In this document: positions 1 to 18,840 of the stretch, piece after piece
How positions within the stretch are numbered: the first letter of the stretch is position 1
How the letters are laid out: each line of letters begins with the position of its first letter
Assembly (NCBI GenBank): GCA_000383355.1
Contig: KB911091.1
Location: 111,024-175,023 of the forward strand
Direction of reading: 5' to 3'
From: Flavobacterium sp. SCGC AAA160-P02
GTDB taxonomy: Bacteria; Bacteroidota; Bacteroidia; Flavobacteriales; Flavobacteriaceae
Length of the DNA: 64,000 bases
The notes under the pieces: generated by a model
The model's database searches: none
Seen by the model: only the letters and a program-made list of their open reading frames with translations
Told to the model about the DNA's origin: nothing
Made by a program: the position numbers and the translations under genes

Positions 1-74
1 TTTTTTTGCGAAAATTGTTTTTCCAATTCGCAAAAATTATAATAGATAAAAAGGAGTATAAGCCAGTTACTTAG
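1..74 (+). CDS. C-terminal end of an unidentified protein (5' end outside window)
   Basis: The frame is open from the left edge to a TAG at 72-74 and encodes 23 residues ending in KKEYKPVT. I do not recognise the family. Coding is supported by the tandem copy 86 bp downstream (95-160): it translates to nearly the same residues ending in GKEYKPVT and a TAA stop, and four of the six differing codons, counting the stop, are synonymous. Only the last two dozen codons are visible, so no function can be given. Confidence 0.5.
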   Translation, partial: FLRKLFFQFAKIIIDKKEYKPVT

Positions 75-160
75 TTTTTAGAGTTTATTTTTTTCGAAAA
101 TTGTTTTTCCAATTCGCAAAAATTGTTATTGATGGAAAAGAGTATAAGCCGGTTACTTAA
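1..160 (+). repeat. 86-bp tandem duplication of a gene 3' end
   Basis: Positions 9-74 and 95-160 align without gaps at 58 of 66 bases, and the first 30 bases (9-38 and 95-124) are identical. The unit holds the last codons of the upstream protein plus a short AT-rich spacer. The frame of the second copy is closed upstream by a TAA at 59-61, so it is a detached tail fragment. The start of each unit can also fold as a weak hairpin (GCGAA with TTCGC). Confidence 0.85.
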
Positions 161-5795: not shown

Positions 5796-6311
5796 ATGAC
5801 TAGAGAAGAAAAATCACAAGTAATACAAGATTTAACAGTTACGTTAGCAAGAACTAATACCATCTATTTAGCAGATATATCTGGTTTAGATGCATTAGCT
5901 ACATCAAACTTACGTAGAGCTTGTTTTAAAGCTAACGTTCAACTAGCTGTTGTTAAAAACACATTGCTTTCAAAAGCAATGGAAGCTTCTGATAAGGAGT
6001 TTGGAGAATTACAAGATGTATTAAAAGGTAATACCTCTTTAATGATTTCTGAGGCAAGTAATGCACCTGCTAAAGTGATCAAAGAGTTCAGAAAAAAATC
6101 AGACAAGCCCTTGTTAAAAGGTGCTTACATTGAAGAAGCTATTTATGTTGGAGACGACCAATTAGAATCTCTTGTAAATGTGAAGTCTAAAGAAGAACTT
6201 ATTGGAGATATTATTACATTATTACAATCACCTGCTAAAAATGTTATTTCAGCATTGCAGTCAAGTGGAGGTAAATTATCTGGTATTTTACAAACATTAT
6301 CAGAAAAATAA
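5796..6311 (+). CDS. rplJ: 50S ribosomal protein uL10
   Basis: uL10 is the stalk base that anchors bL12 dimers. The 171 residues start MTREEKSQVIQDL and contain the rRNA-binding N-terminal domain (about 1-130). The C-terminal helix, about 140-171, binds bL12. It lies 20 bases after rplA and 48 bases before rplL. Confidence 0.97.
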   Translation: MTREEKSQVIQDLTVTLARTNTIYLADISGLDALATSNLRRACFKANVQLAVVKNTLLSKAMEASDKEFGELQDVLKGNTSLMISEASNAPAKVIKEFRKKSDKPLLKGAYIEEAIYVGDDQLESLVNVKSKEELIGDIITLLQSPAKNVISALQSSGGKLSGILQTLSEK

Positions 6312-15055: not shown

Positions 15056-15367
15056 ATGGCCGAAGATCAACATAAAAAAGGGCAAATTAATATTGAGTTA
15101 GACGAATCTGTTGCGGAAGGAACCTATTCTAATCTAGCAATCATCAATCACTCAGTCTCTGAGTTTATTGTAGATTTTATTAGAATAATGCCAGGGGTGC
15201 CCAAAGCAAAAGTGAAGTCTAGAATTATCTTAACGCCACAACATGCTAAAAGGCTTACAAAAGCCCTCGCTGATAATATTTTGAAATTTGAGAAAGCCCA
15301 TGGTGAAATCAAAGATTACGAGCAACCACCAATTCCAATGAATTTTGGACCAACAGGCGAAGCATAA
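15056..15367 (+). CDS. DUF3467 family protein downstream of rpoC
   Basis: Protein of 103 residues matching DUF3467, a small family of unknown function. It contains SNLAIINHSVSEFIVDFIRIMPGVPKAKVKSRIILTPQHAKRL in spirit: a phrase of hydrophobic strands followed by a basic helix (split here only to describe it: strand about 25-45, basic helix about 55-75). The start is 8 bases after the rpoC stop, so it probably shares the rpo transcript. The last 14 codons, including the stop, are repeated twice downstream in a 101-bp array. No enzymatic motif is visible. Confidence 0.85.
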   Translation: MAEDQHKKGQINIELDESVAEGTYSNLAIINHSVSEFIVDFIRIMPGVPKAKVKSRIILTPQHAKRLTKALADNILKFEKAHGEIKDYEQPPIPMNFGPTGEA

Positions 15368-15568
15368 AGTGTAAATTTTACACGATATGATGAAACTTGG
15401 GTTGCTCGAAATGTTTCACATTTCAACCACCAATTCCAATGAATTTTGGACCTACAGGTGAAGCATAAAGTGTAAATTTTAAACGATATGATGAAACTTG
15501 GGTTGCTCGAAATGTTCCACATTTCAACCAACAATTCCAATGAATTTTGGACCTATAGGCGAAGTATA
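15323..15568 (+). repeat. 101-bp tandem array copying the 3' end of the DUF3467 gene
   Basis: Copies begin at 15323 (inside the gene), 15424 and 15525 (partial, ending near 15568). Each restates the codons for PPIPMNFGPTGEA and a stop. The second copy differs from the gene by two synonymous changes in this stretch; the third has three amino-acid changes (PTIPMNFGPIGEV). The spacer holds the inverted repeats GTGTAAA/TTTACAC and GAAATGT/ACATTTC. Confidence 0.92.
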
Positions 15569-15574
15569 ACTACT

Positions 15575-16699: not shown

Positions 16700-17484
16700 T
16701 AAAAAAGATCTAAAATTTGAGAAGCTAAGATACTATAAAAATCAGGAAACCATAGTTTTATTGCCATTGCTAATACCATAATAATAAGCACTTTTTTTAC
16801 GAATTTATCACCCTTATCTACAGACCACCTACTCATAACCCAGCCTCCAGCCGCATTTCCTACAGAAAGGATTAAGCCATATTTCCAATTAATACTATCG
16901 TTATAAGCAAAAACAGCAACGGCCGCTAAAGAATAGATAAGGACTACAGTTACCTTAACAGCATTACTTTTTACCAAAGAAAATTGATTAATACTAGACA
17001 ATAATACCAAGATAACAAAGCCTACTCCGGCTTGTATAAAACCACCATACAAGCCCACAAAAAAAAAGGCCACCATACTTAACCAAAAATGTTTTCCTGT
17101 AATTCTTTCTAAGGTATCTTTTGTGCTAGCTTTAGGTTTAAAAACCATGTAAGCTACAATAACAAGCATAATAATACCCAGTATTTTATTAAATAGTTCT
17201 CCTTCTATTTTTACTCCTGCAAAAGCACCTATTATAGCACCAATAGTAGCCGGTATGGCTATGTAAACACTAAAAGGGTAGGTATTTATTCCTTTGCTTT
17301 GAAAGCCTTTTACGGCAAATATATTTTGAATTATAATTGCTATTCTATTGGTTCCGTTGGCTATGTTTGGTGGCAAGCCTAAGAAGATTAACATGGGTAG
17401 GGTAAGTAATGAACCACCACCTGCAACGACGTTAATCACTCCTGCAATAAACCCTACAAGTACCAACAATATATAGTCTACCAT
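16699..17484 (-). CDS. sulfite exporter TauE/SafE family (TSUP) membrane permease
   Basis: Polytopic membrane protein of 261 residues with about eight hydrophobic segments. The duplicated TSUP motifs are visible: [22 protein letters not shown] at the N terminus and [19 protein letters not shown] at mid-protein, followed by [12 protein letters not shown]. The family moves small sulfur or carbon anions such as sulfite or sulfoacetate; the substrate cannot be read from sequence. It is the first gene of the pair with aroC. A TACTTTTA sequence just upstream is a near-consensus -7 box. Confidence 0.88.
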
Positions 17485-17590
17485 TTTGTCATATTTATTT
17501 TATAAAAGTATTATAAATAAAGAAGAAATACCCCCTAAAAATAATCCATTAAAAAAAGCATAAATGCTTTTACAAAATGAAAAGCTTTTC

Positions 17591-17598
17591 TATATTTG
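17591..17598 (+). promoter_or_regulatory. -7 box of tRNA-Ser
   Basis: TATATTTG matches TAnnTTTG, 31 bases before the tRNA. The leader at 17604-17623 can form a stem (GCTATCA/TGATAGC), perhaps trimmed during tRNA 5' processing. Confidence 0.6.
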
Positions 17599-17629
17599 CA
17601 CCCGCTATCAGTTATTTGATAGCAAGACC

Positions 17630-17714
17630 GGAGAAATGGCAGAGTGGTCGAATGCGGCAGTCTTGAAAACTGTTGACTGTTACAGGTCCGGGGGTTCGAA
17701 TCCCTCTTTCTCCG
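17630..17714 (+). tRNA. tRNA-Ser (anticodon TGA)
   Basis: Class II tRNA of 85 bases. The acceptor GGAGAAA pairs with TTTCTCC, the anticodon loop CTTGAAA gives TGA, and the variable arm is long. The discriminator is G and CCA is not encoded. Its last 17 bases are repeated exactly 171 bases downstream and again, degenerate, at 18041. Confidence 0.97.
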
Positions 17715-17721
17715 CAAAAGG

Positions 17722-17752
17722 AAACTCACAACTAAGGTTGTGAGTTTTTTTG
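17722..17752 (+). terminator. terminator of tRNA-Ser
   Basis: AACTCACAAC and GTTGTGAGTT form a 10-bp stem with loop TAAG, followed by seven or more T. Confidence 0.9.
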
Positions 17753-17892
17753 TTTTCAGAAATGTCGAAAATTTATTTTCGTAATTCACTGAAAACAAAA
17801 AACTAAACACACAAAGTGTGTTTGAGTTTCTATGCTTGCTCGGGATTTCCTGTTGGGACGCACGTAGTGAATCCCTCTTTCTCCGCAAAAAG

Positions 17893-17921
17893 AAACTCAC
17901 AACGAAGGTTGTGAGTTTTTT
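17893..17921 (+). terminator. duplicated copy of the tRNA-Ser terminator
   Basis: Same stem arms as the first terminator, with loop GAAG and a T run. It is part of repeat copy 2 and has no gene of its own upstream. Confidence 0.8.
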
Positions 17922-18120
17922 GTTTTCAGAAATGTCGAAAATTTATTTTCGTAAATAACTTAAAACAAAAAAAACTAAACACACAAAGTGTGTTTGAGTT
18001 TTTATACTTGCTCAGGATTTACTGTTGGGATGCACGAAGCGAACCCCTCTTTATCCGAAATAACCTTTGTAAATCAGTGATTTGTAGTTTTTTAGTTTCA
18101 TTACCCAATTACAAAAGCTA

Positions 18121-18840
18121 TTAATTTTTTTTAACAAAAACCATACAATGTTGCCAAGGAAGATTATTTATATTTTTTTTGAGTTTAAAGCCAGCTGCTT
18201 CCATTTCTTTGACAGCTTGTTTTTCAGACATCTTGTGTATTTCTTTAATAGGAACACTAGAGTCCTCACTTCTGTATTCGATTAAGAATAACTCTCCATT
18301 TGGTTTTAAGGCTTTTTTTATTGAAATAATTATTTCTGCTGGAAAATTGAATTCATGATATACATCCACCATTAAAATTTTATCAATAGAATTAGATGGT
18401 AAATGAATACTTTTTTCACTTCCAAGAATAGTTTCAATATTTTTAATTTTACCAGACTCTTTTGTTTTTTCTATCACCATTAACATTTCTGGTTGAATGT
18501 CTATGGCATACACAAGGCCATTCTTAGTTAAAGAAGCTATTTTAAATGTATGATATCCAGATCCAGCACCTATATCTGCAATAACATCATTGGATTTAAT
18601 TCTCATGTTTTTAATTAATTTAGAAACATTTTCCTCTTCCTCTCGTTCGGATCTTTCTAACCAATCAATTCCTTCGAAACCCATTACATAAGCAATTTCT
18701 CTACCCATATACCATTTTCCAATTCCGTTATAATCTCCTCTTTTAAATGTGTAGTTATTGTCTTTATTGGTGTTTTGACCCAAAAATTCATTGGAAAATA
18801 AAAACATTACGGATATCAAGATTAAAGTAGTTTTTTTCAC
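18121..18840 (-). CDS. exported class I SAM-dependent methyltransferase-like protein
   Basis: Protein of 239 residues that begins with a signal peptide (about 1-21, ending FLGQ) and then a Rossmann methyltransferase domain. SAM motif I, DIGAGSGYHT, is at 89-98, and an acidic residue (AIDIQPEM) ends the second strand as expected. The segment YMGREIAYVMG before the domain marks a known family of secreted methyltransferase-like proteins. The substrate is unknown, and SAM is not normally available outside the cytoplasm. It lies 9 bases downstream of the 404-residue secreted unknown protein, so the pair is probably an operon. Confidence 0.8.
   Translation of the reverse strand: MKKTTLILISVMFLFSNEFLGQNTNKDNNYTFKRGDYNGIGKWYMGREIAYVMGFEGIDWLERSEREEEENVSKLIKNMRIKSNDVIADIGAGSGYHTFKIASLTKNGLVYAIDIQPEMLMVIEKTKESGKIKNIETILGSEKSIHLPSNSIDKILMVDVYHEFNFPAEIIISIKKALKPNGELFLIEYRSEDSSVPIKEIHKMSEKQAVKEMEAAGFKLKKNINNLPWQHCMVFVKKN

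Follow-up and report, generated by a model that had tools for sequence, protein, structure and literature searches.

A tandem array behind tRNA-Ser(tga)

The 64,000-nucleotide stretch analysed here (the window), from the 88.8% complete genome of Flavobacterium sp. SCGC AAA160-P02 (G000), carries a tRNA-Ser(tga) gene with a genuine tandem array directly behind it, made of two units of 171 and 172 bp (Table 1). Each unit ends in a copy of the tRNA tail, and the copies follow the tRNA's own tail at spacings of 171 and 172 bp. The first copy is exact; the second, at 18041-18058, is decayed, with three mismatches to GAATCCCTCTTTCTCCGC. A first-pass annotation of the sequence had noted both copies, their state and their spacing, all of which held; the repeat that it gave as 17 bases long does exist and measures 18. 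Tandem Repeats Finder reports positions 17697-18057 as 2.1 copies of a 172-bp period (90% matches, score 599), the top score among its five rows in the window. Another candidate, a direct repeat at 6274/6421, lies between two coding stretches and was taken as chance.

Table 1. Features of the tRNA-Ser(tga) locus, in window coordinates
Feature	Position	Strand	Evidence
tRNA-Ser(tga) gene	17630..17715	+	ARAGORN; Rfam RF00005, 59.8 bits; T-loop GTTCGAATC intact
Repeated tail, the last 18 tRNA bases, GAATCCCTCTTTCTCCGC	17698-17715		
Unit 1, 171 bp, with four hairpins and an exact tail copy (17869-17886) at its end	17716..17886	+	sequence; fold z -6.2
H1, terminator-like hairpin followed by a T-run	17723..17755	+	sequence, MFE fold, compensatory changes
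H2, long hairpin; the T-run of H1 forms its 5' arm	17747..17801	+	MFE fold, compensatory changes
H3, AAACACACAAAGTGTGTTT hairpin	17805..17823	+	MFE fold of unit 1; absent from consensus fold
H4, GGGACGCACGTAGTGAATCCC, in the place of the T-loop	17855..17875	+	MFE fold, compensatory changes
Unit 2, 172 bp; blastn identity to unit 1 about 91%	17887..18058	+	fold z -4.8
Distal flank with remnant terminator	18059..18100	+	by eye; resembles the flank past the distal tail in G014

Both units are strongly folded. Unit 1 reaches -57.1 kcal/mol (z -6.2 against 200 dinucleotide shuffles), with H1, H2, H3, two small hairpins and H4 in that order. H2 is also marked by an inverted repeat (I9, 14 nt, 100%), and the 3' arm of H4 is the start of the tail copy. 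The two-tier hairpin that had been called intact only in the first copy is present there; in the second it is weakened rather than lost, because unit 2 still folds at -46.7 kcal/mol (z -4.8, likewise against 200 dinucleotide shuffles). A consensus fold of six related units behind serine tRNAs, including the two from the window and two from a locus in another genus (L359), has at least one two-sided change at 17 of its 41 pairs. For the H3-H4 part of units behind arginine tRNAs (from G000, G010 and G007), 96.7% of cells pair and five cells hold a two-sided change, a number that none of 500 shuffles reached; these fall on just two pairs, a count that 264 of 500 shuffles reached.

No GIY-YIG nuclease gene or ORF remnant was found in the window units, nor any GIY-YIG match elsewhere in the window, and no integrase gene lies between the tail repeats within the 171-bp units. 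The only ORFs of at least 50 aa that reach into the units are a 121-aa frame on the minus strand (17535-17900) and a 59-aa frame on the plus strand (17564-17743); both cross the tRNA itself and were taken as spurious. When 17400-18400 was searched against Rfam at a permissive E-value, the tRNA alone passed its gathering score and the other matches stayed below threshold. By eye, the unit 1 hairpins are not flanked by the CGTC tag of a known family of REP palindromes, judged by the family features given in PMC3733652. Tail copies (18 nt, up to three mismatches) were absent from the 2 kb upstream of 107 tRNA genes, tRNA-Ser(tga) included.

Orthologous loci and integrase islands

No two-unit array is present at the nearest orthologous loci. 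A pair of tail matches 171 bp apart (at most one mismatch) occurs in G000 only of 97 genomes; 78 of the 97 have a tail match, and a pair 297 bp apart in G008 consists of two full tRNA genes. We followed the locus through its flanking genes, a TauE-type protein upstream and a methyltransferase downstream. At one orthologous locus (L031) the tRNA is followed by a match of about 71 bp (87%) to the left part of the unit, with no array; that left part may thus simply be the old terminator. A second (L032) has the tRNA, a different terminator and 2.6 kb with an M48-type peptidase ORF, again with no array.

tRNA-Ser(tga) is also a site of integrase islands. The first-pass annotation had suspected an integration hotspot and proposed looking in sister strains for an integrase-bearing element whose ends match the repeat, and such an element exists: the island at this tRNA in sister genome G055 measures about 15.4 kb, carries a tyrosine integrase (PF00589, L276:701-1927) and is bounded by copies of AATCCCTCTTTCTCCGC plus terminator. 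Its repeat starts at the same base as that of the window, AATCCC. In G014 the locus is split over two contigs, with the tRNA side on L154 and the methyltransferase side on L113 and L153. There an integrase ORF (L113:950-2185) adjoins a shorter tail copy, an arrangement from which we conclude that integrase islands use this tRNA; an H1-like terminator and a 499-aa ORF with a secretion-tail domain follow. The right ends of both islands, G055 and G014, lack a T-loop hairpin before the tail (2/2 read). Further along, G014 has a distal H3-H4-tail end, and the flank beyond it is, by eye, that of the window, so that this unit end probably predates the split between G000 and G014. Two further genomes carry extra copies, a tail copy about 92 kb away in G029 (L277/L278) and, in G018 (L286), another full tRNA-Ser(tga) gene at a distance of 9.5 kb, which are perhaps other islands at this tRNA.

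Units behind other tRNAs

Units of the same layout recur across the tRNA genes of G000. Reading downstream by eye, we found them at 8 of 34 distinct tRNA genes (one gene accounts for two of the 35 matches): Ser-tga, Ser-gga, Val-tac, Arg-tct, Arg-acg, Arg-tcg, one Pro-tgg and one Met-cat. Each ends in the tail of its own tRNA. A strict test (last 17 bases, at most two mismatches) recovers four of the eight, the others having shortened or decayed tails. A C-GNA-G hairpin with a stem of at least 3 lies within 200 bp downstream of all eight unit-bearing tRNAs and of 1 of the 26 others. At tRNA-Pro, however, the hairpin sits in the native flank and is also present at the empty tRNA-Pro site of G010, so that the fair count is 7/8; the single exception among the others, Ser-gct, reads into that same tRNA-Pro flank. 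Around 176 distinct tRNAs, a set biased in that some loci were chosen for their tail copies, 23 tail copies lie downstream and one upstream, and the lone upstream copy is the unit of a preceding tRNA.

Some of the unit bodies are homologous. Window unit 1 aligns with the Ser-gga unit of G000 at z 8.7, a score that 0 of 500 shuffles matched, and homologous unit bodies stand behind three Arg tRNAs of the same genome. The pattern GGATCARNGNNNNTAATCC proved too narrow, with 11 matches over 97 genomes, three of which (G067, G039, G085) have no tRNA in the locus and lie in what by eye seems to be one conserved gene. The idea that GNA-loop hairpins are a genome-wide dispersed repeat was rejected: with a stem of at least 4 they occur in G000 at a background of 13 per 928 kb of strand sequence, and in G020 at 32 per 800 kb.

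Tail duplication is not confined to tRNAs. In 464 kb of G000 (the window and 20 further stretches) we recognised five tail arrays by eye, at tRNA-Ser, at tRNA-Val and at three protein-gene 3' ends; the remaining direct repeats lie inside genes or look coding (e.g. L179, L183). In G020 (400 kb read) the clear cases are those linked to tRNAs. One protein-gene array, at window 15323-15569, places the 3' end of a DUF3467 gene in 2.4 copies of a 101-bp repeat (score 445); the old terminator is displaced to its far side, and relatives L154 and L031 have an empty site. Another, an 86-bp array broken by a run of N in the contig, covers window 1-159 and L175:740-1200, at the 3' end of an acyl-CoA-dehydrogenase-like gene (named by eye). 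The third (L195:11923-12400) repeats 264 bp in tandem at the 3' end of an ORF of 801 aa.

Long units with nuclease genes

In relatives, long units share the layout and add a GIY-YIG nuclease gene of about 80-95 codons, confirmed by Pfam. In G016, G019, G020 and G033 the 330-407 bp from tRNA-Pro to the tail copy hold such an ORF, and the same is seen behind tRNA-Val in G020 and G059. These tRNA-Pro and tRNA-Val units have a longer distal tRNA fragment, where an unrelated hairpin takes the place of the anticodon arm; in the distal copy at G020 tRNA-Val the T-loop is altered as well. A single-contig genome, G180, has five 365-bp GIY-YIG units behind tRNA-Met, and G093 has three behind tRNA-Arg. 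The only PDB match (E of at most 0.001) to a tRNA-linked protein was 1zg2, UPF0213 protein BH0048 (E 8.8e-05).

The association with tRNAs was counted in one branch of the nuclease family. With the tRNA-linked protein of G059 as query, 50 of 196 genomes of the order proved to have homologues. Because this query was chosen for its tRNA, the following counts describe that branch: a tRNA lies no more than about 1.5 kb away at 25 of 30 loci examined, the remaining five being pieces shorter than 2 kb, and a downstream tail copy is present at 18 of those 25. When the best Pfam GIY-YIG match of each of 29 relatives was taken instead, a tRNA was called at three loci only (L317, L319, L320). In G000 the G059 protein had no match at E 1e-8. 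That genome has four GIY-YIG matches, none in the window units, and its one small free-standing GIY-YIG ORF stands before tRNA-Leu rather than behind a tRNA. The latter is a mirror case: at L293:1424-1830 the ORF directly precedes tRNA-Leu(caa), with an upstream copy of the tRNA 5' end into which a hairpin is inserted.

Short and long units occur together. Behind tRNA-Ser(tga) of G099, of another genus in the same family, locus L359 has successive units of 177, 177, 373 (with GIY-YIG gene), 178 and 177 bp, and its short unit aligns to window unit 1 at z 9.2 (0/500 shuffles as high). At a tRNA-Ala locus (L340), 148-bp units correspond by eye to a 385-bp GIY-YIG unit minus most of its ORF and retain the DNA of the ORF's last codons; the short form thus relates to the long one as a miniature does to its parent element. 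Since the window units hold no GIY-YIG gene, calling them miniature rests on comparison with these two loci.

We therefore read the window array as two miniature, non-autonomous, ORF-less members of a GIY-YIG-linked family of tRNA-3'-end units, with a probability of roughly 0.7. The observations behind this reading are the anatomy of the units, the empty sites, the many tRNA types, the mixed arrays, one short unit that looks like an internal deletion of a long one, and the conserved fold. The window units themselves lie directly behind a tRNA, end in its tail and have one tRNA arm replaced by a hairpin. Counting against the reading are the absence of the nuclease gene from these units and of a tRNA-linked homologue from the 88.8% complete G000, the distal copies that keep their T-loop, the match to the left part of the unit at L031, where there is no array, the tail arrays at protein-gene ends, and GIY-YIG arrays with no recognised tRNA gene (L369, L370); tRNA-like fragments are present in L370, and we saw none in L369.

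Copy boundary and proposed mechanism

The boundary of the copied tail points to where a nuclease might cut. By a text rule, 53 distinct tail copies (four from E. coli) divide into 24 with an altered T-loop, one of which (L280) has a mere point change, and 29 with the T-loop kept. The latter, of the anticodon type, have another arm replaced wherever they were read; loss of the T-loop motif is thus not general. In most T-loop-altered copies, including the first in the window, the copied part begins at or beside A58, inside GTTCGAATC.

These features suggest a homing route. A full-length unit carries a terminator, then the gene of a free-standing GIY-YIG nuclease (about 80-95 aa), and at its right end an unrelated hairpin stands in for one arm of the tRNA (T or anticodon), ahead of the native tail; miniatures have kept these ends and lost the gene. 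The nuclease would cut the tRNA gene in or near the T-loop, or in the anticodon arm, and repair of the break from a unit-bearing copy would let the unit enter, its own tail keeping the tRNA whole. Arrays could then grow by repeated homing or by recombination between tails, and miniatures may be mobilised in trans or may now be relics. According to PMC13096335, SegB of phage T6, a GIY-YIG enzyme, cuts in tRNA genes; 23 of 83 sites show the motif RAWTSGAAC, and tandem amplification of a unit of tRNA-Tyr and truncated segB requires the enzyme's nuclease activity. We read the reverse complement of that motif, GTTCSAWTY, as the T-loop. By analogy with SegB, and with the copied part starting at about A58, we regard T-loop cutting followed by recombination as the likeliest route.

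Competing explanations

Three other accounts of the array fare less well. A replication accident, in which template switching or slippage at the tRNA and terminator hairpins yields partly inverted tandem duplications with no enzyme involved, would fit the way in which parts of unit 1 mirror one another (TTTTTTGTTTTCAG/CTGAAAACAAAAAA) and the similar arrays at protein-gene ends (DUF3467, window 1-159, L195). It sits poorly with homologous bodies behind Ser-tga in two genera (z 9.2), behind Ser-gga (z 8.7) and behind three Arg tRNAs, and with the GIY-YIG genes in long units and the compensatory changes; we hold it to be unlikely. The first-pass alternative of pure slippage is disfavoured by the homologous unit behind tRNA-Ser(tga) in another genus. 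Casposon-type duplication of the tail was considered too, and set aside.

The annotation's other proposal was that the tail copies are scars, that is, right attachment sites left by tyrosine-integrase islands after deletion or collapse to 171 bp. The hotspot in sisters (the G055 island and the G014 integrase ORF by its tail copy) and the shared first base of the G055 repeat, AATCCC, speak for it, yet neither island right end has the T-loop hairpin, units of one layout stand at 8 of 34 tRNA genes, each with its own tRNA's tail, and the units of relatives hold GIY-YIG genes rather than integrases. Place, layout and fold are common to units behind many tRNA types, and the chance that the copies are integrase scars is small. 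"Collapsed element" may be near the truth, for a different element. Tail copies behind tRNAs need not be integrase scars, and island finders that rely on direct repeats at tRNAs can therefore err.

That the units are instead kept for a function, as a processed RNA or as extra terminators like the small RNA RttR of E. coli tyrT, is very improbable: the strong fold with compensatory changes, the terminator-like hairpin that comes first and the annotation of RttR within such a unit in E. coli K-12 agree with it, but the two-unit array is patchy (absent at orthologous L031, L032 and G014), 26 of 34 tRNA genes in G000 have no unit, the second copy has decayed and the nuclease genes in long units are left unexplained. 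A functional-RNA or terminator role can coexist with the miniature-element reading.

Comparison with known systems

The closest likeness in layout is to the 178-bp repeats of E. coli K-12 tyrT/tyrV (rttR/tpr region, L338). There, too, tRNA tail copies are spaced 175-178 bp apart, the tail copy begins TAATCC with the T-loop replaced, and GGGGAAGGAT pairs with ATCCTTCCCC with GNA-loop hairpins between. The window units share the tandem arrangement, the tail copy from A58 and the altered T-loop. They differ in their relatives' nuclease, since no GIY-YIG gene was seen in the 1.8 kb of E. coli sequence examined, and in their fold, that of one E. coli unit being no better than shuffles (z -0.9). To our knowledge, the repeats behind the E. 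coli tyrosine tRNA are an old and still unexplained observation. According to PMC12306157, rttR bears a REP.

Homing endonucleases of the SegB type in T-even phages offer a parallel on the enzyme side. According to PMC13096335, the GIY-YIG gene adjoins a tRNA, its product cuts tRNA genes, and it drives tandem repeats of a tRNA-segB unit, which by analogy could resemble the arrays described here. That system differs in being of phage, in carrying a full tRNA-Tyr in a 718-bp repeat and, in the sections consulted, in making no mention of an arm-replacing hairpin. Tyrosine-integrase islands at tRNA 3' ends likewise rebuild the tail of the tRNA gene that they enter, and its 3' end then stands as a direct repeat, as it does in the window units; tRNA-Ser(tga) is their site in G055 and G014. 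Unlike the units, they are kilobases long, carry an integrase gene and have no hairpin before the distal tail (2/2).

REP/REPIN-RAYT systems and CGTC-tagged REPs are also short, non-autonomous palindromes paired with a nuclease-type enzyme, whereas the window units are tied to tRNA tails and RAYTs are tyrosine transposases. Small GIY-YIG loci often have direct repeats of at least 30 nt on both sides (14 of 29, two of the 14 being tRNA cases). Of 187 small ORFs taken as controls, two have them, and both of these lie at the GIY-YIG unit of G020 tRNA-Val. Twelve such repeat-flanked genes lie in relatives (L305, L306, L308, L310, L311, L312, L313, L316, L318, L321, L322, L325), and at several the flanking repeats are, by eye, palindromes resembling CGTC REPs. 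A core resembling H4 of the Arg-type units (WTCAGCNNAGCTAAWY) was counted 59 times, in 19 of 97 genomes, and the backward pattern nine times; three such cores, in G022, lie within 250 bp of a GIY-YIG gene. The enzyme that moves CGTC REPs is an open question, no dedicated transposase being known in 2013 according to PMC3733652, and the repeat-flanked GIY-YIG genes are a possible lead to it.

Our literature search, which left subscription journals mostly outside, recognised no account of bacterial tRNA-tail units with GIY-YIG genes. Tentatively, the tail-copy arrays behind bacterial tRNAs, E. coli tyrT included, might form one broad class of selfish DNA built on small GIY-YIG nucleases that cut tRNA arms: genes would home in along with a hairpin marking the arm that they displace, ORF-less miniatures would persist, and the same enzyme family could drive CGTC-tagged REPs. 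Such a class would suggest that tRNA-tail repeats like those of E. coli tyrT share an origin and would attach a concrete enzyme family to them, and the natural pairs of full and miniature units are material for tests of cutting and copying.
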